The position numbers and the translations under genes were made by a program. This document shows positions 438-12,538 of a stretch of 64,000 nucleotides of DNA, piece by piece; position 1 is the first letter of the stretch, and each line of letters opens with the position of its first letter. The notes beneath the pieces are model-generated. The model did no database searches. It was not told where the DNA came from and saw nothing but the letters and a program-made list of their open reading frames with translations. The stretch comes from Rhizobium sp. TH135 (lineage in GTDB: Bacteria; Pseudomonadota; Alphaproteobacteria; Rhizobiales; Rhizobiaceae), in contig NZ_PKRP01000001.1 in NCBI RefSeq assembly GCF_002855515.1, forward strand, positions 1 through 64,000, read 5' to 3'.

Positions 438-1795
438 TTTCAACCACACCTTGGGCTTCAAGGACCCTTACGTCGAAGCTCCATCAACGGGCTCAGAACG
501 AGGATGGCAGTTCGTAAAGTTTTCGACAGGCGTCGTGATAACGAATCCTCCTAGAGAGGCAATGTGAAATTTAGTTCAAATATACAAATCGCGGCTCCCA
601 TTAACCATATCGGAGCTGTCCGTTCCGGATGCGTTCTATTTGCCTTGTCGGCGAGCCATCTCCGGGCTAAGTCTGGGCTGTGCCGGAAAAATAACGATCT
701 CCAGAACTTAAGCGGCCCACGCTGGTGTTCGAGCACCAAACGAGGGCCTGACCCGCAACCTTGGCAAGAAGGAATTGGGCTATGAAGACCCTTAACCGCT
801 TCGCTTCCGTGATGGAAGCACTCCCCACATGGATCCTGTTGATCCCCTTTTCGATCATACGGCGGCAACCAGGCGCTCTGCCTTCGCCGGCGCAGGTTTG
901 ACGGCTGCGCTTCCGCAAGCCTGATCGAACTCTTATGACATCGCTGGCATCAGTTGAGGTCGAGCGCGCCGGACGACGTCCTGAGCCGGGCCATGGACTT
1001 TGCCCTGATGTCGCTCAACACAGGATACATAATATGACCAACACCGTTTCCGGTGCGGCTTCCTCACCAACCCATCCGCATGCTGTAAATCCAGATGTGC
1101 TGCATCCGAGGCTTGATGGACTATGCCGTCAGGTGCTGACATCAAGCTTTGGCTCGACCTCTCTGATGGCCGCGCTTGAGTAAGGACTTTCTGACGTTTC
1201 CAGCCTGCTGCGCGGTGTGCCGGCGGCCGAGAGCCGCCTGATCGAGCGCGGCATTCAGATGATTGTCGGCCTCTATCCCGAACTCGTTGTGCTGACGGAA
1301 AACATTCGTCTGCCGGTGAGCAAAGCAGCGCTGGATGTCGTCGAGCGCAACGAACCTCGTCAATATGCATCCTTGACGCGACGGCTGGCCGAACTCGATC
1401 TCTACCAACAGGCAGCCGTCGCAGGTCTGCTTGACGAGCGCACTTATGACGCTGGTGGGAGTGCTGGTCCGACCTGGATCAGTCACTGGGTGCCGACAGC
1501 TGAGCTGATGCATCTGTTATCGCTTGGACCTCCGGGCAAAAAGATCCTGTGTCGCAGGCTCGGACATGACGGCCAGCACCGCGATCCCCTCGCGGAGGCC
1601 TCGCAGTCTCAGCCGGCGTCAACGGCACCCGATCGAAAAACTCCGATGTCGACGTCGTCATTGGTATCGTCGTCAGCATCAGATACGGATTCTCAGCGCC
1701 AAGCCGCATGGCACTGGGCTGCTCTCCGTGAACACCTGCCGCTTACGAAAGCAGCACCCGTCGCGGTGGCTCTGCTGATTGCCCGCGCAGTCGGA
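438..1795. other. Non-coding or decayed DNA downstream of the ugd start side
   Basis: No intact gene is recognised here. Open frames exist on both strands but are short, overlap one another and lack recognisable motifs. One plus-strand stretch at about 1190-1450 reads like real protein (aliphatic and charged residues in good proportion, for example IVGLYPELVVLTENIR) but has no convincing start and then runs into low-complexity sequence. It is best read as the remnant of an unidentified gene. The promoter of ugd must lie in the first few hundred bases, but I see no clear -35/-10 pair. Confidence 0.5.
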
Positions 1796-2332
1796 TCACA
1801 CCTTGGCGGATGGGAGGCGCTGCGGGCGATCCTGCGCCGCCCCGACCCGTTCATCGTGATGTGCATCCCAGTCCCCGGCTTCCAGCGCCATTGTGGCCGC
1901 TCCCTGGAGGACGGACTGCTCATCCTCCAACCGCACAAAGAAGATGAAGTCCGGACGCAATATCCGATTCTCGTTGGCATCCTCATAGATGAGGCCGAGT
2001 GAATCCTGACCAGAGCGGGCTGGGTTGCGATACCAGCCGATAGCCTCATTGCGCGCCAGTTCCGCTTTCAGAACTGCTGACTCCCAGGTTGAAGTGAAGT
2101 CTTGCGGAAAGTGTCCCTTTTCATCACAAAGCAGGTGGCGCTCATAACGAGGCAGATCGACCTCTTTGCCGTTTTCGCGCGCGGTCGTCATTTGCAGCCA
2201 CATATGCGGGCGGACCATTTCGACCGGCAGCGGGTCGGCGCTCATTTCCCTGATCTGGCGATAGACGTCTTGCCGCGAGCTTGTAAACCGTGGACGGAGG
2301 CAGAACATCGATGACCTGAACCATCCATCCAT
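1796..2332 (-). pseudogene. Fragment resembling the C-terminal part of a DEAD/DEAH-box (type III restriction-like) helicase
   Basis: Residues about 60-134 of this frame (about 1931-2155) match a pattern I associate with the C-terminus of large DEAD/DEAH helicases related to type III restriction subunits: a TSTWESAVLKAELA helix, the GWYRNPAR motif, SLGLIYED and RPDFIFF. The usual continuation (a D-P-H-rich strand after FFVR) is not found in this or either neighbouring frame. The several-hundred-residue helicase core is absent upstream, and the N-terminal 50 residues are low quality. I infer a decayed remnant, possibly left by an earlier insertion next to the tRNA-Ser element. The family call rests on recalled sequence patterns, so moderate confidence only. 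Confidence 0.45.
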
Positions 2333-2826: not shown

Positions 2827-2983
2827 CATTTGAAAGATCAAAGAGTTGCCAGAACTGGCAATCGCTTGAGCAAAGGCAGACTTTGCGTGCCTCAAGCGAG
2901 GCTCTACCATCCTCGATACTTTTGCAAGGCACCCCAACACACTAGATACTGGTGGGGAAACCCTTGCACCCCAAGGGTTCACG

Positions 2984-3001
2984 ATGGCGGAGAGGGTGGG
3001 A
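2984..3001. repeat. att core repeat, distal end of the element
   Basis: Identical over 18 bp (atggcggagagggtggga) to 6975-6992. The repeat equals the last 17 bases of the tRNA-Ser gene, including the encoded CCA, plus one base. This copy is followed by sequence unrelated to tRNA, as expected for the duplicated attachment site left by integration into a tRNA 3' end. Confidence 0.85.
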
Positions 3002-3133
3002 CACTAATCCACGCCGGATAGGCAATTAAATTCAAATACTTAGCTGCAGCCCATCACTGTGTTTGCAGTCCATTTTGTAGCTAGGTTTGGGGGCGGAAAA
3101 CTGTGGATTTCCGCCCCTGCCCTACTCTAGCTG

Positions 3134-3331
3134 CTAGGCATGGCCGTTCTGTTCAGCGTCGGCCTTGATCGTCTCGGGCCAAATGTCACCGAAGACGCCG
3201 ATCGCTTCCTTCACGCGGGTTTCGTCCAGGTCGCCGGTGACAGGGCAAACCAGATCCCCCGAATTGATGGCGCTGCAAAGCTGATCGATCAGGCGATCAT
3301 ATGCGGTCTTCTCAAGATAGATGGCGTTCAT
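3134..3331 (-). CDS. Hypothetical protein, 65 aa, carried by the integrative element
   Basis: Not a recognised family. The protein is soluble and acidic with a helical N-terminus (MNAIYLEKTAYDRLIDQL) and a C-terminal GDIWPETIKADAEQ segment. The ATG at 3331 has a GGAG ribosome binding site 8 bases upstream; a longer open frame starting at 3361 lacks one. It is the last gene of the element in its transcription direction, close to the distal att repeat. A small helical regulatory or accessory protein is plausible, but nothing in the sequence fixes a role. Confidence 0.55.
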   Translation of the reverse strand: MNAIYLEKTAYDRLIDQLCSAINSGDLVCPVTGDLDETRVKEAIGVFGDIWPETIKADAEQNGHA

Positions 3332-3443
3332 GTTCGGCGCTCCATTGGCTGGTTGATGCACCGATTCTGATTCAAGTCGCGAAACTTATAAAGAGATATT
3401 AATAAATAATTTCAGATACTTAGGATAAGTAAGTAGTGACTTA

Positions 3444-3878
3444 TCAGTCTAGTTTGCTGCAACTGCCTACCGCCACAAAGAGGGTATCTGTGCTGTCGTT
3501 GTAGTGGGAGAAGAGATAGGCGCTTATGAATTTGCGGGTTTCGAAGCTGAATCGAAGCGAGCCTAGGTATGTGCTGCAAATCAATTCGTCGGAGATCAGC
3601 GCTTCAGTCGTAGGGATATTCATACAAGTGACGTCGTTCTTAAGATCGGTGTCAGTGAATGTGACCTTGTAGGAGTCGGGGCCGCTACCCGGACGTATCT
3701 TAAGGATCGATCTAATCCGTGTGGTATCGAATGCGCCGGCAATCCATTGTTTCGTTTCTTTGTTGTAAGCCATCCCGCCGGCCGCGTCTGCGAGGCAAAG
3801 GTAGTTGCCGGTAACGCCTTCAGCCTGTGCCGCGCCAAATGCGCCGATCAGTGCCAGGGTAAGAGCGAGCCGCTTCAT
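3444..3878 (-). CDS. Hypothetical small secreted protein (144 aa) of the integrative element
   Basis: The N-terminus is a clear Sec signal peptide: KR, a hydrophobic core LALTLALIGAFGA, then A-Q-A before Glu20, a good signal peptidase I site. The mature part, about 125 residues, holds six cysteines (in LCLAD, VTCMN, LICST and GSCSK among others), suggesting a disulphide-stabilised periplasmic or secreted beta-rich protein. The family is unknown. The 5' end overlaps the 3' end of the upstream putative replication gene by 59 bp in a different frame, so the two are probably co-transcribed. A superinfection or surface function would be speculation. Confidence 0.65.
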   Translation of the reverse strand: MKRLALTLALIGAFGAAQAEGVTGNYLCLADAAGGMAYNKETKQWIAGAFDTTRIRSILKIRPGSGPDSYKVTFTDTDLKNDVTCMNIPTTEALISDELICSTYLGSLRFSFETRKFISAYLFSHYNDSTDTLFVAVGSCSKLD

Positions 3879-5055
3879 ATGGAATCCGCTTAAGGTTGTT
3901 CTTTCGACAACCTAGCGTGACAATTCGAGCGCTGCAATCACGGCGCACCGGGGCTTGTGAGCGGGTGGGTTTCTTTGACTCATAGCGGGCCGCTGGCAAG
4001 CGCCTGGGCTTCGCGCTGTCATTGGCCGGCGAGGCCTTAGAAACGCGCGGGCGGGCTGCTGTGGCCTTTTTGGAGCCGTGCCAGGCTTCAGCTTCACGCC
4101 GGAAGCTTTCGGTGATGAAGTAGGGCTTGCCAGCGAGCCGTTCGCCGGTCTTCGCGAAGTCCTTCAGGGTGTAGCCATGCCAGCCGGTCGAGTCTGAAAT
4201 AGGAACCAGTTCCACCATGCGGCCCTGTCCATACTTCGATTCCGCCTTCCCGGTCGTGCTGTAGAGCGCGGCCCTGATCTGGTCCGGATCATGAGCGCCG
4301 GGAATGATGACGCCGTGAGCGTGAAGCTTGCCGGTGAGCGGTGAGAATTCGAAGGCGAAGGCATATTCGAGCGCGTGGCCGAGGTGCTTCTTCAGAGCGC
4401 GATTTAGCGAACGCGACAAAGCGCGCGCCGGATCGTCAGACTTCCGCAAGCGGGCTTCGTTGGCCTTGGAGAATTGAAGGGTGAGCGCGAGGCCGTCACG
4501 TTGGGCTGCGAACCTGAAGGTGAGAAGAAGGCGCTGTTCCGGGGTGAGGCTGCACCATTGCCGGCGGATAGGCATCACCTGGGCTGCACGCTTGTCGTCG
4601 GCTTCGCGTTGGCGGGTCTTCCTATTCTCTTCAGCCTTCCGGATGGTGTCGAGAAGAGACGGCGGGCGAACGATCGGCGCACGTGGCGAAGTCGTCGGCT
4701 TGTCCAGGTCGGTGAAGATCGCGGCGAGGTCGGAAGCTTCAGGTGTAAGGGTTGTGGTAGGAAGGGGAAGAGAGAGGGGTGAAGGGCTAACTACACCTTC
4801 ACCTTTCGAAGCCGGTTCTTCAGGCTGCGGAAAATAGGGTTCCGGCTCTTCCTGAGCTTCAAAAAGTTGCACTGTTTCGCAACTCTCATCTTCCGAAAAA
4901 TCGAGCGCGGCGATCTCATCCAAGATGGATTGCGCAACGCCGCAATTCTTCGTGACGATGAATTCGGGGGAAGCGGCGACCTGTTCGCCATCGAAGAAAT
5001 TTTCAAGGCGACGTGTTTTTTCTGCAAAATCGTCGCGGTCATTGCTATAATGCAC
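3820..5055 (-). CDS. Putative HUH-type rolling-circle replication initiator (411 aa) of the integrative element
   Basis: The first 130 residues are acidic and proline-rich and look disordered. The folded part, about residues 150-330, holds the features of a rolling-circle initiator: a His-Ala-His pair in KLHAHGVIIPG (HUH metal site, preceded by EFSPLTG) and, about 55 residues later, GWHGYTLKDFAKTG, where the Tyr with a Lys three residues on fits the YxxK nicking motif. The tail is basic. The start is a GTG at 5055 with AAGGA 7 bases upstream. It lies downstream of the integrase, separated by a strong hairpin. The role is to nick one strand and start rolling-circle copying of the excised circle. 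The HUH reading is by motif only; the exact family is not identified. Confidence 0.65.
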   Translation of the reverse strand: MHYSNDRDDFAEKTRRLENFFDGEQVAASPEFIVTKNCGVAQSILDEIAALDFSEDESCETVQLFEAQEEPEPYFPQPEEPASKGEGVVSPSPLSLPLPTTTLTPEASDLAAIFTDLDKPTTSPRAPIVRPPSLLDTIRKAEENRKTRQREADDKRAAQVMPIRRQWCSLTPEQRLLLTFRFAAQRDGLALTLQFSKANEARLRKSDDPARALSRSLNRALKKHLGHALEYAFAFEFSPLTGKLHAHGVIIPGAHDPDQIRAALYSTTGKAESKYGQGRMVELVPISDSTGWHGYTLKDFAKTGERLAGKPYFITESFRREAEAWHGSKKATAARPRVSKASPANDSAKPRRLPAARYESKKPTRSQAPVRRDCSARIVTLGCRKNNLKRIPYEAARSYPGTDRRIWRGTG

Positions 5056-5084
5056 TTAGTGATCCTTCAGCACAAGGATTGCGT

Positions 5085-5124
5085 TAAGAAAACCGAAGCC
5101 GGAAGGATTGCGCCCCTTCCGGCT
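5085..5124 (-). terminator. Rho-independent terminator between integrase and replication gene
   Basis: A perfect 10-bp stem (AGCCGGAAGG, 5097-5106, with CCTTCCGGCT, 5115-5124) closes an 8-base loop. Read on the minus strand it is followed by TCGGTTTTCTT. On the plus strand it is followed by another T-rich run, so it could act in both directions. It ends integrase transcription before the replication gene. Confidence 0.75.
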
Positions 5125-5157
5125 GTTTCTTTTTCAGCAACTATTATAGCAAGCCGA

Positions 5158-6874
5158 TCAGCGATATTTGCGAAAAAGTGACGCCGCGTGTCGATTTATA
5201 TTGAACGACTGCCCAAGCGTTGCTTCAGCGGTCCTTACGCGGGCATTACACCTTACTGCCGGGAAGTGTGCCCGATTGATAGCGTCGTGCATCTGTCCAA
5301 TCATCGAACCGGTCTGGTCGATCAGATACCGTCCCGCCGATGACTGATCTTCATGCCCCATGATCAGCCTCATCGCGGCTTCAGGCGCGCCGCCGCGCGT
5401 CATCGTCGCTTTCATCGTGTGCCTGAAGGTGTAGAAATCATTGTCTTCCGTCTTCACGCCGAGGCCTGGGAGGAATGTCCTGTTGATCCATCTGTTGATG
5501 TTATCATCCGTCACCCAATCAGGTAGCAACCTCTTATCACTTCGCCGGTTCGCGGCTTCGACGTGTTTTAGAAAGCCGAGATTGATCAGGTCATCGTGCA
5601 ACGGAACCAACCGCTTCGAACGCCTGTTTTTTGTGGCGGTGTTTAGGTCGATCACCCAATGTCCATTTTCCTTATAGACCCGATCAGCCGTAGCCAGACG
5701 CAACTCACTAGAGGGGCGCGCCGCCGTCAAAAGGGTGAGTAGGATTGCCCATTGCCGGGTTCCCCAAGTCGGTTCCGAGAACAGATCACTTTCGAATATC
5801 TTGGCTAGCTGGTCCGGTGTGAAGATCGCTCTAGTGGTGTCACCATCGACCTTCTTAGCCTTCACCTTCACCCCCTGGGCCGGATTCGCGGGCATGAATT
5901 TTTGACGCACCGCCCATCCGAGGATAGTTGATAGGTGCATTAACCACTTGTCATTTATGGTTTTCTTGTCGAGCGGCGCATACGGTCGCGCAAGGGCCTT
6001 GTTCAATTCGATCGCTTGAGGGAGCGTCGCCCCTTTAAACCGCTTCGTGTAACTTGATGGCAACTCGACAAGAGCATTCTTGTAGGCAATCACATGATCA
6101 TCCGTGATCTGGTCTAGATAGAAGTCACCGCCGAGAAACTCGCTAAACATGCGGATAGCAACCGAATGCTCTCTAACGGTTCGTGCTGCCAGGTCATCGT
6201 TCTCCTTCTCGAAGCGCTCCACTAGTCCAGAGAGCCTTATGCGGTTCCTGGCGCCCATTGCCTTTGTGGGGGATGCCGGCCCTGCCTCTTCCGGGGCTGT
6301 CGCTAAGATCGCCGCGCGGGGTTCGGGATCGTGAGCCTGCCCCGATCGGCGCGAAGCTTCTATCTGCAACGTGTCTAATCGAACCTCTGCCAAGGCGGGA
6401 AGCAAGGCCGAACGGTCTTGTGTGGTCATGTGCTGCGATTGTAGGTCCTCGTCGATCGCGTAGCCTAAGAGTGCTTCGGCCTCATCGTCGGGAAGCGAAC
6501 CATTCGCCACGGCCCGAAGCTTGTTCGCCAGGACGCCGGCACTGAGCTTGAAGAACTCTTCATTCTGCGACGGAAGGGCCGATAGCTGTTCGGCCAGGAT
6601 CGCCGTTTTTTTCACGTTCGAAGAATTCGCGCGCCATCTTGCGAGCATCGAATGCGCTAGCCGGATTGGCTAACGACATACGCGCGGCATTTAGGATCTG
6701 CTCAAACTCTTCGAGGATTTTTGCGGCCTGCCGGCGAGCTTTGATCGTATCGGGGCCGAGGGGTCGCAGAAGTTCTCGCTTCCCAACGATTACCCGTAAC
6801 TCTTCCGGAACGGCCTTTCAAGCCACCCATTGATTCTTGATCCACGGGACATTGACCATGAGTTTCTTAGGCAT
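5158..6874 (-). pseudogene. Tyrosine recombinase/integrase of the tRNA-Ser element, disrupted by a stop and a frameshift
   Basis: The ancestral frame starts at ATG 6874 (MPKKLMVNVPW), meets a TGA at codon 19 (6818-6820), and reads on through VPEELRVIVGKREL, the usual N-terminal integrase segment. At a run of seven A residues (6606-6612) the open frame moves by +1; one A fewer would restore it. From there 485 further residues run without interruption. The SAM-like DNA-binding domain and the catalytic domain are visible: Arg in TAARPSSELRL, FYTFRHTMK (Tyr where the first box-II His usually stands), MGHED, and the nucleophile Tyr in SAGRYL. The gene lies next to its tRNA target, as expected. Without suppression and frameshifting no full-length protein can be made. 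Confidence 0.8.
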
Positions 6875-6974
6875 CGTCAGCGGTCGCTTTTGTAGTTGAT
6901 TTTGTAGCGAGCTTTGGATGCTAAACGCCGGATTTTCAAGGGGTCTTGAGCGATATCAGGGCGTTAGGATCGTT

Positions 6975-6992
6975 ATGGCGGAGAGGGTGGGA
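6975..6992. repeat. att core repeat at the tRNA-Ser 3' end
   Basis: This 18-bp copy forms the 3' terminus of the functional tRNA-Ser gene (discriminator, CCA and the 3' side of the acceptor stem with part of the T arm) and is identical to 2984-3001. Integration therefore rebuilt an intact tRNA. Confidence 0.85.
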
Positions 6993-7065
6993 TTCGAACC
7001 CACGATACCCTTGCGAGTATGCCGCATTTCGAGTGCGGTGCTTTCGACCACTCAGCCACCTCTCC
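6976..7065 (-). tRNA. tRNA-Ser (anticodon CGA)
   Basis: The 90-nt cloverleaf on the minus strand begins GGAGAGGTGGCTGAGTGG and ends TCTCCGCCA with encoded CCA. The 7-bp acceptor stem GGAGAGG/CCTCTCC is perfect. The anticodon stem CCGCA/TGCGG holds loop CTCGAAA with anticodon CGA (7029-7031), reading UCG. A long variable arm (CATACTCGCAAGGGTAT) and a GGTTCGAATCC T arm confirm a serine tRNA. It serves as integration site for the neighbouring element. Confidence 0.97.
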
Positions 7066-7454
7066 GGTCACATTGGTCGGCGCTTGTTGGCGCGGGCTGT
7101 CTCATAGCGGCAACTCACCCCCCACGCAAGAGCGATATGACGCTTTTTCCACTCTTCTGCAGAAACAGCGGCGCCCTCCCCCGCGCGCTGCTTCCTTCAG
7201 AGATCCCGGCCGTCAGTTCAACGCCATATCGTTACTCACGAGTCGCAGAAGAGGCGCGTCAAGGATCGCCGATGAGAGCGACTGTAGAGCCCCGGTGAAC
7301 ATCGACCTGTCCAAACGCGTTGGCAAATCAAAGCCAAAGATCCGGAACCCGAGATAGTCGATTCCGCCGATCTGGGATGGTGGAGATTGTCGAACCACTT
7401 CCTTGAAGTTGAACGGACTCCGTACGCGGACTCCGCAGCCCTCCCCCCCTCACC
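7066..7454. other. Intergenic region between tRNA-Ser and the pao operon
   Basis: No gene is supported. Open frames here overlap each other and show no domain. The tRNA-Ser promoter must lie in the first 60 bases (the tRNA is transcribed leftwards). I see no strong hairpin with a T run after paoC. Confidence 0.5.
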
Positions 7455-9653
7455 TCACGCCACCTCCGGCAAGCCGCCAATCAGCTTATCGAGCGTCACA
7501 GGATATTCGCGCACCCGCACTCCGGTCGCATTGTAGACAGCATTCGAGATCGCGGCGGAGACGCCGCAGAGGCCGAGTTCGCCGACACCCTTGGCCTTCA
7601 TCGGCGACGACATCGGATCGGTCTCGTCGAGGAAGATCACCTCCTGATGCGGGATGTCCGCATGCACAGCCACCTCATAGCCGGCGAGATCATGGTTGAC
7701 GAAGAAGCCGCGGCGCGTGTCGACCGCCAGCTCCTCCGAGAGGGCCGCACCCACGCCCATGGTCATGGCACCAATCACCTGGCTGCGCGCCGTGATCGGG
7801 TTCAAGATGCGCCCGGCGGCACAGACGGCCAGCATGCGTCGCACACGGCACTCGCCGCTTGCCATGTCGACGGCAACTTCGACGAAATGCGCACCGAAGG
7901 TCGATTGCTGGTGAGTCTTGGAAAGATCGCCCCATTCCATCGTGTCCTCCGCCACCAAACCTTCGGGCCCGGCGACCTCCGCGAGCGGGACGGCGCGATT
8001 TCCGGAGCGAACCTGGCCACCCTCGAAGACCACGTCTTCAGTGTTGAGACCGATCGTCTTGACGACAGCATCGCGCAGCTTCACGCAGGCCGCATAGACG
8101 CCCGCGGTCGAGCAATTGGCCCCGAACTGCCCGCCGGAGCCGGCAGAGACCGGAAAGCGGGAATCGCCGAGGCGTACATCGACCTCCTCGACCGTGACCC
8201 CCATCATCTCGGCCGCCGTCTGCGCGATGATCGTATAGCTGCCGGTGCCGATATCCGTCATGTCGGTCTCAACGGTCACGCGGCCCTCCCGTGTAAGCCG
8301 GACACGGGCGCCCGAGGGAACGAGGAGGTTGTTGCGGAGTGCCGCAGCGACGCCAGTGCCGATGAGCCAGTTGCCCTCGCGGCGGGAGCCTGGCGTCTGG
8401 CGCCCTTGCCAGCCGAAGCGCTCGGCGCCGAGGCGCAGGCAGCCAATGAGGTCGCGGTGCGAGAACGGCCGCTCAGGATGCTCCGGGTCGACCTGGGTAT
8501 CATTGATGATCCGGAACTCGACCGGATCGATGCCCAGCTTATCCGCCATCTCGTCCATGGCAATTTCCAGCGCCATCAGGCCCGGCGCTTCGCCGGGCGC
8601 GCGCATGGCGTTGCCTTCGGCGAGATCGAGCGTTGCAAGGCGCATAGCGGTCATGCGGTTCGCCCCGGCATAGAGAAGCCGCGTCTGGTTGACCGCCGTC
8701 TCGGGTTTGCCGCCCGGCAGGTCGCCGGACCAGCTCTCATGCGCGATCGCCTCGATCTTGCCATCGGCCGCAGCGCCGATCCGGATGCGCTGGACAGTAG
8801 CCGGTCGGTGGGTGGTATTGTTCATGATCATAGGCCGCGGCAAGGTCACCTTGACCGCACGCCCGGCGGCTTTCGCGCCCAATGCTGCGAGCACGGCATC
8901 GGCCCGGAGGAACAGCTTGCCGCCGAAGCCACCGCCGATGAATGGCGACATCAGCTGGATCTTCTCCTTGTCCATGTCGAGGAAGGTCGCCAGATCCTGC
9001 CGCCACCAGTCGATCATCTGGCTGGATGTCCAGACGCGCAGCGCATCGCCAGCCCAGGCCGCGATCGAGGCATGCGGCTCCATCGCGGCATGCGACTGGT
9101 CGGGCGTCCGGTAATGCGCATCGAGCGTCACGGGGGACCGAGGGAAGGCTGTGTCGAAATCGCCAAATTCGGTGTCGGGCTCTTCCTCTTCGTCCGGCTT
9201 GACCGCCGTCTTCATCGCTTCATCGAGGTCGTAAGAGCCCGCCTCCTCTTCGTATTCCACCTTGATCAGCGACGCGGCGGCACGTGCCTGTTCAAAAGTT
9301 TCGGCAATCACCAGCGCCACGGCCTGGTGATAGTGCTGCACCTTGCTGCCGCCGAAGAGGGTCGCGGTGTTATACTCACCCTTCTCGCGGTCGCCGACAT
9401 CAAGCGTCGTCACAATGGACAACACGCCGGGCGCGCTCTTCGCCGCCTCGACGTCCATAGCCAGTATCCGCCCTTTTGCGATGGCGGCTCCCAGAGGGTA
9501 GCCATAGGCATAGTCGAGATCGGGCTCGTGTCCCTCATAAGCGTAGGTCGCCTGGCCGGTGACCTTCAGCGCACCGTCGATGCGGTGGATTGGACGCCCG
9601 ACAACCGTCAAATTGTCGATGGGGTTCGTCGTGGCGGGTCTATCGAATTTCAT
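7455..9653 (-). CDS. paoC: Aldehyde oxidoreductase, molybdenum-binding subunit (PaoC/YagR family)
   Basis: Large catalytic subunit of a xanthine-oxidase-family enzyme that oxidises aldehydes to carboxylic acids with water as oxygen donor at a molybdenum cytosine dinucleotide cofactor. It is 732 aa, the length I recall for E. coli PaoC. The N-terminal a/b-hammerhead domain starts at about residue 20 (GRPIHRIDGALKVTGQATY). Molybdopterin contacts follow: GGGFGGK (about 240), MRAPGEAPG, and GSGGQFG. The base Glu692 stands in GVGELG. It is last in the order paoA-paoB-paoC, 4 bp after paoB. A xanthine dehydrogenase is less likely because paoB has the extra Fe-S loop typical of Pao. Confidence 0.88.
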   Translation of the reverse strand: MKFDRPATTNPIDNLTVVGRPIHRIDGALKVTGQATYAYEGHEPDLDYAYGYPLGAAIAKGRILAMDVEAAKSAPGVLSIVTTLDVGDREKGEYNTATLFGGSKVQHYHQAVALVIAETFEQARAAASLIKVEYEEEAGSYDLDEAMKTAVKPDEEEEPDTEFGDFDTAFPRSPVTLDAHYRTPDQSHAAMEPHASIAAWAGDALRVWTSSQMIDWWRQDLATFLDMDKEKIQLMSPFIGGGFGGKLFLRADAVLAALGAKAAGRAVKVTLPRPMIMNNTTHRPATVQRIRIGAAADGKIEAIAHESWSGDLPGGKPETAVNQTRLLYAGANRMTAMRLATLDLAEGNAMRAPGEAPGLMALEIAMDEMADKLGIDPVEFRIINDTQVDPEHPERPFSHRDLIGCLRLGAERFGWQGRQTPGSRREGNWLIGTGVAAALRNNLLVPSGARVRLTREGRVTVETDMTDIGTGSYTIIAQTAAEMMGVTVEEVDVRLGDSRFPVSAGSGGQFGANCSTAGVYAACVKLRDAVVKTIGLNTEDVVFEGGQVRSGNRAVPLAEVAGPEGLVAEDTMEWGDLSKTHQQSTFGAHFVEVAVDMASGECRVRRMLAVCAAGRILNPITARSQVIGAMTMGVGAALSEELAVDTRRGFFVNHDLAGYEVAVHADIPHQEVIFLDETDPMSSPMKAKGVGELGLCGVSAAISNAVYNATGVRVREYPVTLDKLIGGLPEVA

Positions 9654-10608: not shown

Positions 10609-11123
10609 GCGCGTGTTCCCGCCACTTCGGTGATGGCATCGATGATGTTGGAATAAGCCCCGCACCGACAGATATTGCCACTCATCCGCTCGCGAAGTTC
10701 GTCGGCGGTGATCTCGGCCTTGGCGGTGAGATCTTCAGTGACATGGCTCGGGATATTGGCCGCGATCTCCTCCAGCACGGCAATGGAGGAACAGATCTGG
10801 CCCGGGGTGCAGTAGCCGCATTGGAAGCCGTCATGTTTCACGAAGGCGGCCTGTATCGGGTGGAGGTCGCCCGGCTGGCCGAAGCCTTCGATCGTTTTCA
10901 CGCTGGCTCCGTCATGCATGACGGCCAGCGTCAGACAGGCATTCACCCGACGCCCGTCGATCATGACGGTGCAAGCGCCGCACTGCCCGTGATCACAGCC
11001 CTTCTTGGTGCCGGTCAAGTGGAGATGCTCGCGCAGAAGGTCGAGAAGGCTCGTCCTGTTGTCGACATCGAGTTGGTGTGGCTGGTCATTGACCGTCAGG
11101 GAAAGCGTGGTGCTGTGGCTCAT
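10605..11123 (-). CDS. paoA: Aldehyde oxidoreductase, 2Fe-2S subunit (PaoA/YagT family)
   Basis: Small electron-transfer subunit with two 2Fe-2S clusters. Cluster II ligands are CDHGQCGAC plus the Cys in NACLTLA; cluster I ligands are FQCGYCTPG and NICRCGAY. The length is 172 aa. The start at 11123 has AGGA about 7 bases upstream; the in-frame ATG at 11144 lacks a binding site. E. coli PaoA carries an N-terminal twin-arginine signal that exports the folded trimer. None is present here in either start version, so this enzyme should stay in the cytoplasm. It is first gene of the paoABC-like operon. No dedicated maturation gene (paoD) is seen next to it. Confidence 0.87.
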
Positions 11124-11267
11124 CGAATGTCCTGGTCTCTGCATCGCCGACCCGCAGGCGGGACTTTTGGCGGTGATGGTAAGGGGGGATTTTCGTGGAA
11201 TGTGGCTTCAAAGGGGGAACGCTGGAGAGGATGCCGGTCGGTGGAAAACCGATCGTCTCGCGGTCCG

Positions 11268-11501
11268 TCAGCGGTTACCAGACCTCCACTGTCGATAGGG
11301 TGCCAGAAGCTGCCCTGGAAAGCGGCGTTCGATCTCGTCCTCGACAAGCGCGATCCTGGCCAGGATCTCATCCCGGTCACTGGTCGAATCTTCACTGCGC
11401 ATTTCCAGGGATTTCATGGCAGCGAAGACCTCATCATCGGTCATCGCCTCAAGCCGGGACGCAAGGTCCGATACGTCTTCTGTCTGAATATCGCTGGCCA
11501 T
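11268..11501 (-). CDS. Hypothetical small acidic protein (77 aa)
   Basis: No recognised family. The protein is almost wholly helical and charged (TEDVSDLASRLEAMTDDEVFAAMKSLEM, given here as its general character, continuing with ARIALVEDEIERRFPG), suggesting a short coiled coil. GGAGG lies 9 bases before the ATG at 11501, favouring it over the ATG at 11507, which is too close to that site. It begins a run of four small minus-strand genes with no domain link to the pao operon. Confidence 0.55.
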   Translation of the reverse strand: MASDIQTEDVSDLASRLEAMTDDEVFAAMKSLEMRSEDSTSDRDEILARIALVEDEIERRFPGQLLAPYRQWRSGNR

Positions 11502-11666
11502 GATCATGCGCCTCCCAATGGCTGGGAAAGGCAGACGACGGCAGATTGTTCCCGAAGCTTTTCAGGAATGAGACCGGAAAATGCCGACAGCGATTACCTT
11601 CGCAACCCGGAGGCACAGGTTCAATACCGGTCAGCGCTGCAGGTTATGATGGGAAGCAGTATGAGC

Positions 11667-11693
11667 GGCTGACCGCCTTCCGGGCGGCCAGCC
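11667..11693 (-). terminator. Possible terminator hairpin after the 123-aa gene
   Basis: An 11-bp stem with one mismatch (GGCTGACCGCC, loop TTCCG, GGCGGCCAGCC) lies just after the TAA at 11701 in the minus direction. There is no T run, so it may be a rho-dependent or transcript-stabilising hairpin instead. Confidence 0.4.
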
Positions 11694-11700
11694 AGGGACA

Positions 11701-12072
11701 TTACGCCTCGACAGTCTCGCGGACGTCATCGAGCAGGAAATGCACCACCACATAGCGTGTCGAATAGGTCCGCCCGCTGTCGGAGACGCTCTCGACCGTG
11801 CCGCCGTCTGCCGGGTGCCACTGGCTGTAATGAGGATTGTTGACGATGAGCGTGATCGCCTTGCCGGCGAAGGCTCCCTGCAAACGGTAGCGCGCTTCAG
11901 CGAGCGGCCAGATGCGTTCGAAATCGGCTTGCGTTACCCGGACTTTCAGCGCCTGGCGGCGAATGGCCTCGCTATGCGAACCATCTTCTCGCTGACGCGC
12001 CGCACTTTCGAGCGTCACTTCCTCCGCCCCGTCGAGAATAGAGCTGAGTTCCTCCGGCCACATGCGTCTCAT
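11701..12072 (-). CDS. Hypothetical protein (123 aa)
   Basis: Function not recognised. The protein is soluble, with a helical charged first half (VTQADFERIWPLAEARYRLQG) and a beta-rich second half (KAITLIVNNPHYSQW, TYSTRYVVVHFLLDD). The ADFERIWPL and RYRLQG segments have the look of a small alphaproteobacterial conserved family. The start at 12072 has GGGAGGAG about 7 bases upstream. It lies between other small genes on the same strand but with 145-190 bp gaps, so it may have its own promoter. Confidence 0.6.
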   Translation of the reverse strand: MRRMWPEELSSILDGAEEVTLESAARQREDGSHSEAIRRQALKVRVTQADFERIWPLAEARYRLQGAFAGKAITLIVNNPHYSQWHPADGGTVESVSDSGRTYSTRYVVVHFLLDDVRETVEA

Positions 12073-12217
12073 AGAATTGCTCCTCCCCGAGCGTGTTCAT
12101 GGTGACACGGTCGAGTGTAGCGCGTCTGGCGCGGGATACAACGCGCCAGTGCTTGGTCGGATCAATTCGACGCAGAAACTGCCGCCGGTCGCCGAACTTT
12201 AGGAGAAGCCAGGAGGC

Positions 12218-12538
12218 TCACTCCGTGCAGCCGGTATCCTTTAGAGCCTGGGCATGGAAGCGGCGCAGTGCTGCTTCGATATCGGCCTTGGTAAAGCTGT
12301 GGCCGGCAGTCGCGAGGTCACGCGACAGGCGTGCAATTACATCGCCGTCACCGCTCACCACATGGTCGACCATGTGCAGGTCGCGGGCATAGCGCCCGAG
12401 GTCATCACCGGCAAAGCCGATCAACGATCCGGCCCAGTAGCCGGCGAGCAGATTACGACGGGCGCGAATGCTGCCGAGACCGTCCTCTTCGTGCGGATGG
12501 ACGGAATGGGCGGTGGTCGTAACAGCGGATAGGGGCAT
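12218..12538 (-). CDS. ATPase inhibitor subunit zeta-like protein (DUF1476)
   Basis: Alphaproteobacterial F1Fo-ATP synthase is inhibited by the zeta subunit, a four-helix protein of about 105 aa that blocks the rotor. This 106-aa protein matches the family pattern: RARRNLLAGYWAG (the usual ARRNKLLGLWAA region), FAGDDLGRYARDLHM, GDGDVIARLSRDLATAGHSF and KADIEAALRRFHAQA. The N-terminal inhibitory stretch is poorly conserved compared with what I recall of the canonical protein, and the gene is isolated, so this is probably a divergent second copy and its target is uncertain. The ATG at 12538 is preceded by a strong GGAGGAG; the ATG at 12562 would place that site inside the gene. Confidence 0.75.
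   Translation of the reverse strand: MPLSAVTTTAHSVHPHEEDGLGSIRARRNLLAGYWAGSLIGFAGDDLGRYARDLHMVDHVVSGDGDVIARLSRDLATAGHSFTKADIEAALRRFHAQALKDTGCTE

Follow-up and report, generated by a model that had tools for sequence, protein, structure and literature searches.

A small tRNA-Ser insertion in a Rhizobium genome, read as a probable deletion relic of a capsid-forming satellite lineage with an HUH protein

What kind of mobile element occupies only 4 kb between two copies of a tRNA 3' end, and carries an integrase and a candidate rolling-circle initiator without any capsid gene? This question is raised by positions 2984-6992 of a 64,000-nucleotide stretch of the Rhizobium sp. TH135 genome (the window, by which we mean the whole stretch). 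We consider it probable (roughly 0.72) that the window holds a relic, internally deleted and probably immobile, of an alphaproteobacterial lineage of capsid-forming satellites that resembles the capsid-forming phage-inducible chromosomal islands (cfPICIs) and has an HUH protein. The window keeps the integrase, the HUH gene and a small protein gene, which represent both ends of the usual gene order of this lineage, and nothing of the block between them. A preliminary description made from the sequence had proposed integration at tRNA-Ser, a pairing of tyrosine integrase with HUH protein, and a satellite-like nature, all of which are borne out; its suggestion that the 4-kb unit might be a recognisable group is not, as the relatives are instead parts of 14-19 kb elements with a capsid and packaging block.

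The gene at 3820-5055 (minus strand) encodes a 411-aa protein that, judged from its structure model, has a genuine HUH endonuclease fold of the replication-initiator type, a fold that had been set as a test in the preliminary description. H245, H247, G248 and Y295 are invariant across the 19 aligned rows of the family (motif HxHG plus a Tyr), and the AlphaFold2 model, with core blocks near a pLDDT of 90, has the HxH pair on a strand, with Tyr295 in a later helix. Rep domains of adeno-associated virus, circovirus, geminivirus and pMV158 are the top fold neighbours in the PDB, unrelated folds occur further down the structure-search lists, and the first BFVD row is a microvirus replication initiator. 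A false motif was ruled out as an explanation of the HUH match, since the structure model and the relatives agree. The Pfam family REP_ORF2-G2P (PF23343) matches 10 of the 19 family members, the window protein not being among these; the latter gave no match in Pfam, PHROG or NCBIfam and no phage record, and viral-contig scans with it and with the related protein P0002 confirmed nothing. A PDB sequence search with the family profile returned only demethylase matches (best E 0.076), which we take as spurious. We infer that the protein starts rolling-circle replication; a search of the surroundings of the HUH genes for a common origin, by shared 10-mers, gave one doubtful word only.

The larger context of this family was read from 31 HUH loci with their flanks, the window included (L035, a match of E 6e-4 to the C-terminal end only, was left out, and the IMG/VR contigs L057-L060, which repeat L020 and L027-L029, were not counted again). 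Terminase and connector genes lie beside the HUH gene by tblastn in 21 of these loci (L020, L024, L026-L030, L032, L033, L054, L061, L101-L108, L115 and L116), and all but L027 also have a capsid-protein match (20/21). The genes usually run integrase–portal–capsid–connectors–terminase–tape measure–HUH–small protein or, in more detail up to the HUH gene, integrase, portal (PF04860), a protein like gp10 of gene transfer agents (GTA-gp10-like, PF11836), capsid (PF05065), HNH, connectors, TerS, TerL and tape measure. Capsid protein, protease, portal, connectors, HNH, TerS and TerL were identified by Pfam and PHROG in L020 and in L045, an element found through its integrase (see below); L045 has prohead protease and capsid protein as one fusion, and tblastn with it covers most of its length in several others. 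The GTA-gp10-like protein is a tail tube protein by PHROGs, and L104 has a minor tail protein as well. Integrase and HUH gene could both be placed in 13 loci, with the integrase on the portal side in 11 (L026-L029, L032, L033, L101, L104, L105, L107 and L115). Eleven HUH-bearing elements are clearly bounded by repeats of tRNA 3' ends (L026-L029, L032, L033, L101, L104-L106 and L108), at tRNA-Gln, -Val, -Ser and -Thr, and measure ~14.4 to 18.6 kb; L024, outside these eleven, lacks an integrase match and has two copies of a tRNA-Gly repeat, which would make it ~17.0 or 19.2 kb long. The expectation that homologues of the window's genes would occur together between tRNA repeats therefore held in that they are often tRNA-bounded, and failed in that they are so as parts of 14-19 kb capsid elements, while the window's own four-gene order was seen in no other locus examined. 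HUH-bearing elements occur in several families within the window's order (L056, a named copy of L020, is from Gellertiella hungarica DSM 29853) and also on a Rhodobacterales plasmid; two species of the window's genus (L115, L116) carry the block and the HUH gene, the left ends of these elements lying beyond the stretch examined.

Individual loci illustrate what a complete element looks like and how one may lose its middle. L104 reads tRNA, integrase, portal to tape measure, HUH and small protein, with 16.9 kb between 18-bp repeats, and matches the window in order, strand, tRNA-Ser site and position of the core. In L023, tRNA-Pro repeats lie 10.8 kb apart, the HUH gene and the end gene y28 are kept, and an in-frame fusion, one open reading frame (ORF) at 10714-12504, starts as an integrase (N-terminus, DUF6538) and ends as a tape measure (C-terminal part); by this join L023 is clearly a deletion product, and an independent parallel in which the same kind of internal loss took place. 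Its 10.8-kb stretch also contains ORFs for IS66-like transposases. The smallest of the 21 block-bearing loci, L027, has a portal piece and a terminase and no capsid-protein match; at 1067-1644 the HNH-side gene comes straight after the portal piece, and nothing between the two matches a capsid protein. This looks like another partial loss of the block and favours the deletion reading. The Paracoccus marcusii locus L054 (NZ_CP157016.1) is, by its gene content, a plasmid form of the capsid element, a 17.5-kb circle with portal, capsid, TerS, TerL, a tape-measure-like ORF, a Rep3 initiator and the HUH gene. At L100 (13659-17293), an HUH relative lies downstream of an AAA_24 ATPase and a DEAD/ResIII helicase ORF, with no capsid-block matches, which is, on this gene content, another context for the family.

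The window's integrase gene is broken. The catalytic part is a 496-aa ORF at 5158-6648 (minus strand; PF00589 3e-7, phrog_1 2.6e-29), and the 5' part of the gene (6578-6874, minus strand), recognised by tblastn with relatives and by translation, does not share the frame of the main ORF and has a stop at codon 19. The proposed tyrosine integrase is thus present by PF00589 and PHROG but not intact, and the window copy is therefore probably stuck. All five of the closest chromosomal integrases (40-44%) adjoin a tRNA-Ser, and the capsid block follows two of them (L042, L045). Together with L084, L042 forms a 16.8-kb element at tRNA-Ser in which the block is present. Integrases were abundant in the 16 genomes surveyed, among the matches listed. 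As a separate observation, a close integrase relative occurs in five other genomes, and four of them (G033, G177, G195 and G032) also carry an HUH relative at a separate locus, a share that looks higher than overall rates would suggest.

The insertion itself measures 3,991 bp and displaced the sequence downstream of tRNA-Ser(CGA) by that much. This tRNA (6976-7065, minus strand; ARAGORN, Rfam tRNA 64 bits) is the integration site, and its 3' end forms the right attachment (att) copy: an 18-bp core at 6975-6992 that recurs 18/18 at 2984-3001 and 26/30 when extended. As is usual for tRNA-integrating elements with a tyrosine integrase, the att repeats derive from the tRNA 3' end and the integrase lies near one end. 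L104, L101 and L084+L042 use the same part of a tRNA-Ser as their core, with lengths of 18, 17 and 19 bp. For an empty-site comparison we used 10 same-genus loci around tRNA-Ser(CGA), drawn from 59 other matching genomes. All ten have an intact tRNA, and a BLAST alignment spans the left junction in four (L074, L076, L080, L081). In L074, L076 and L081 the tRNA continues directly into the counterpart of window positions 2955-2983, the native sequence displaced by the insertion; in the remaining six loci the sequence after the tRNA differs. On its plus strand, the whole window has TTTTGTAG only at 3073 (3073-3080), 6888 and 6900 (both within 6888-6907), in each case at most 105 bp from an end of the element, and these copies, of which the right-hand pair belongs to the D1 repeat family, look like arm-type sites of the integrase. 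The arm-like repeats match between left and right, which argues that these are the ends of one element. In the L042 element a similar word, TTGTAGCAA, lies near both ends at similar distances, and TTTTGTAG is absent from L104 and L101. A chance origin of the 18-bp pair was ruled out by the empty site, the arm-like sites and the displaced flank. The preliminary description was therefore right about a ~4-kb insertion between 18-bp repeats, about its four minus-strand ORFs (integrase, HUH, secreted-like and 65-aa proteins), all of which lie inside the element, and about the absence of capsid genes, as queries with the capsid module gave no match within 2984-6992. Two observations concern other events near this tRNA. 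Window positions 1379-1925, left of the element, are 81% identical to L078 1149-1707, ~7 kb from a same-genus tRNA-Ser(CGA), and are perhaps left over from a further insertion at this site. L074 (in G439) holds at 7847-7974 a 128-bp, 98% copy of window 6986-7113, the tRNA-Ser(CGA) region, ~5.7 kb from its intact tRNA, possibly marking another island there.

Many HUH genes share a leader layout, which at the aligned starts consists of an upstream extended -10, an A-run with a GC hairpin (a terminator on the opposite strand), and, within the opening codons, TATAGC (an extended -10 on that opposite strand). In the window, the predicted extended -10 of the HUH gene (TTGCTATAAT; 5143-5152, minus strand) comes just after the integrase stop codon, a predicted antisense extended -10 (5042-5051, plus strand) falls within codons 2-5 of the HUH gene, and the resulting countertranscribed RNA (5058-5135, plus strand) would be ~75 nt long and end in a hairpin with a T-run. 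The predicted RNA folds into two stem-loops (-30.5 kcal/mol, z -4.07), and those of four relatives have z from -2.06 to -4.36. Statistics were computed on 26 of the 31 HUH genes (L106-L108, whose starts were not located, and the later additions L115 and L116 were left out): the antisense -10 motif is present in 11, the antisense terminator in 14 and both in 9, against means of 0.23, 0.73 and 0.01 in 100 dinucleotide-shuffled sets, and 0, 1 and 0 among 43 control gene starts. The layout is non-random, far above shuffles and control genes. Within the first 25 codons, Tyr-Ser pairs are written TATAGC in 10 of 12 cases versus 13 of 195 elsewhere in ORFs of the same loci, which indicates that the DNA itself is conserved, beyond the peptide. 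L115 and L116 show the A-run and hairpin by eye; TATAGC/T is absent from their first 60 nt. The simplest reading of these sequences is a plasmid-type antisense control of the initiator by the predicted RNA, and such a copy-control-like leader favours replication rather than packaging as the role of the HUH protein.

In a complete relative, the integrase would excise the element from the tRNA and the element would circularise; the circle would replicate by HUH-protein nicking (rolling circle), restrained by the antisense RNA across the HUH leader, and the element would package itself with its own capsid and terminase, most tail parts probably being borrowed from a helper phage. The helper dependence is presumptive, as tail proteins are partly kept (tape measure, GTA-gp10-like protein and, in L104, the minor tail protein). 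In the history of the window, an internal deletion would have removed the block from portal to tape measure and the integrase would have decayed afterwards; loss of the block before decay of the integrase is the likely story, an order that we infer. Elsewhere in the genome that the window comes from there is one portal gene (PF04860; G000:C11:306541-307527), a locus that is possibly a prophage and a candidate helper.

Several points weigh against the deletion reading. The loss of the block is deduced from relatives, as no trace of it remains in the window, and the junction is clean: the predicted HUH promoter follows the integrase stop by a few bases, an arrangement that would fit a purpose-built small element too. 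The block was not seen in 10 of the 31 loci (window, L021, L022, L023, L025, L031, L034, L055, L100 and L109; L021 has a tape-measure remnant only, and L025 was counted here though its contig ends 157 bp before its HUH gene), and the family hence also lives, as far as these gene contents go, outside capsid elements. No HUH gene was detected in L042 and L045, the capsid elements with the closest integrases, so the pairing in the window could be recombinant, and the other close integrases (L043, L044, L046) have no capsid gene in the 20 kb examined, which speaks against the simple view of a single element's history. L106 and L108, 2 of the 13 loci, have their integrase at the HUH end, and this counts slightly in the same direction. 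As to the leader, its motifs were defined only after the sequences had been inspected, the antisense -10 motif is absent in 15 of the 26 genes and one or both marks in 17, and the window hairpin at 5097-5124 scores as a terminator on both strands, the sense strand included. A general -35/-10 promoter scan found the region no richer than shuffles and did not list either predicted -10 box, and terminator-like sites there (6 vs 5.1 in shuffles) are not in excess.

The clean junction could mean that the window holds a self-standing minimal element, an integrative plasmid or minimalist satellite that only integrates and replicates, is packaged by others and is possibly a parasite of the capsid-forming satellites themselves. 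Its HUH ORF, leader, small protein and att ends are all intact, P0002 (a 70% identical HUH protein) sits on another contig, the block-less loci L022, L031, L034 and L109 have no set boundaries and so leave room for small elements, and small satellites without capsid genes are described in excerpts of PMC10803314. We nevertheless think this unlikely, given the broken integrase, the lack of the four-gene order in any locus from the family, order and genus searches, and the fact that the nearest parallel, L023, is so clearly a deletion product. Rather more improbable is that the HUH protein serves packaging, or is a nicking or homing nuclease riding with the capsid block: its place among late genes, the theta-type Rep3 initiator that the Paracoccus plasmid carries besides it and the missing HUH gene of L042 and L045 would suit such a role, but replication initiators rank first among its structural neighbours, though unrelated folds follow, the REP_ORF2-G2P matches point the same way, and the gene has its own predicted promoter and antisense layout. 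An origin from a filamentous phage, one of the ancestries first proposed, is hardly credible. The REP_ORF2-G2P similarity, which leaves out the window protein, is its one weak link; the relatives carry HK97-type capsid, portal and terminase, and scans of the window's four ORFs gave no such family (coat, Zot-like), no dedicated search having been made. We thus retain the deletion relic as the preferred reading.

The two remaining ORFs lie at the left end. The 65-aa protein (3134-3331, minus strand), read from an ATG inside 3134-3361(-), has relatives in several complete elements, where they come directly after the HUH gene. The 144-aa ORF (3444-3878, minus strand) has a signal-peptide-like start and may be cargo or chance; neither the loci nor the family libraries yielded a relative of it, a large protein set not having been searched.

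On the deletion reading, an unannotated protein becomes tied to a set of phage-like elements, the ~75-nt antisense RNA over its leader is a concrete prediction of how a satellite might restrain its copy number, and two separate losses of the capsid block with ends kept (window and L023) show a route from larger satellites to small ones or to relics. Much more tentatively, the relatives might form a separate alphaproteobacterial lineage of capsid-forming satellites, with HUH protein and antisense copy control, that repeatedly sheds capsid-less miniatures through deletions between the integrase and the HUH gene, some of them mobile and packaged by full-size siblings; if true, these would be satellites of satellites.

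Among known systems, the nearest are the cfPICIs, called widely distributed in excerpts of PMC10690885, which also describe their capsid and packaging genes. The full-size relatives similarly hold capsid protein, portal, connectors, TerS, TerL, HNH and integrase in 14-19 kb. They differ in having the HUH protein where cfPICIs are said to have a Pri-Rep initiator and alpA, both named among the cfPICI signature genes in PMC10448857. Across 12 genomes, AlpA (PF05930, E up to 0.01) matched at 9 places in 8 of them, always outside the elements, although a very divergent AlpA could escape. HTH_17 places, among those listed, also lay outside elements. The relatives further keep the tape measure and GTA-gp10-like protein (in L104 also the minor tail protein), and their hosts are Alphaproteobacteria, absent from the excerpted host list of PMC10803314. 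We found no description of HUH-type capsid-forming satellites in a literature search that covered few subscription papers, which is weak evidence of absence. The phage-inducible chromosomal minimalist islands (PICMIs) of Vibrionaceae, integrated next to fis, are, according to excerpts of PMC10803314, small, free of capsid genes and replicated by a plasmid-like rolling circle. The window element is likewise small, has no capsid gene match and presumably replicated by a rolling circle, but it sits in tRNA-Ser and appears descended from a capsid-bearing type, a comparison made by description and not by homology. With G2P-type and other single-stranded DNA phage initiators, the family shares the HUH fold, one conserved Tyr and the PF23343 matches in 10 of 19 members, whereas it sits in integrated elements with HK97 capsids. 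Rolling-circle plasmids of the pMV158 type have a terminator-ended antisense RNA opposite the rep leader; their RepB is a fold neighbour of the HUH protein and the antisense layout, here predicted only, is alike, although the HUH family lives in phage-like, mostly chromosomal elements. From their gene content, the relatives are classed here as a cfPICI-like variant; the window, whose copy has no capsid gene match, counts as a remnant of that variant and not as a cfPICI.

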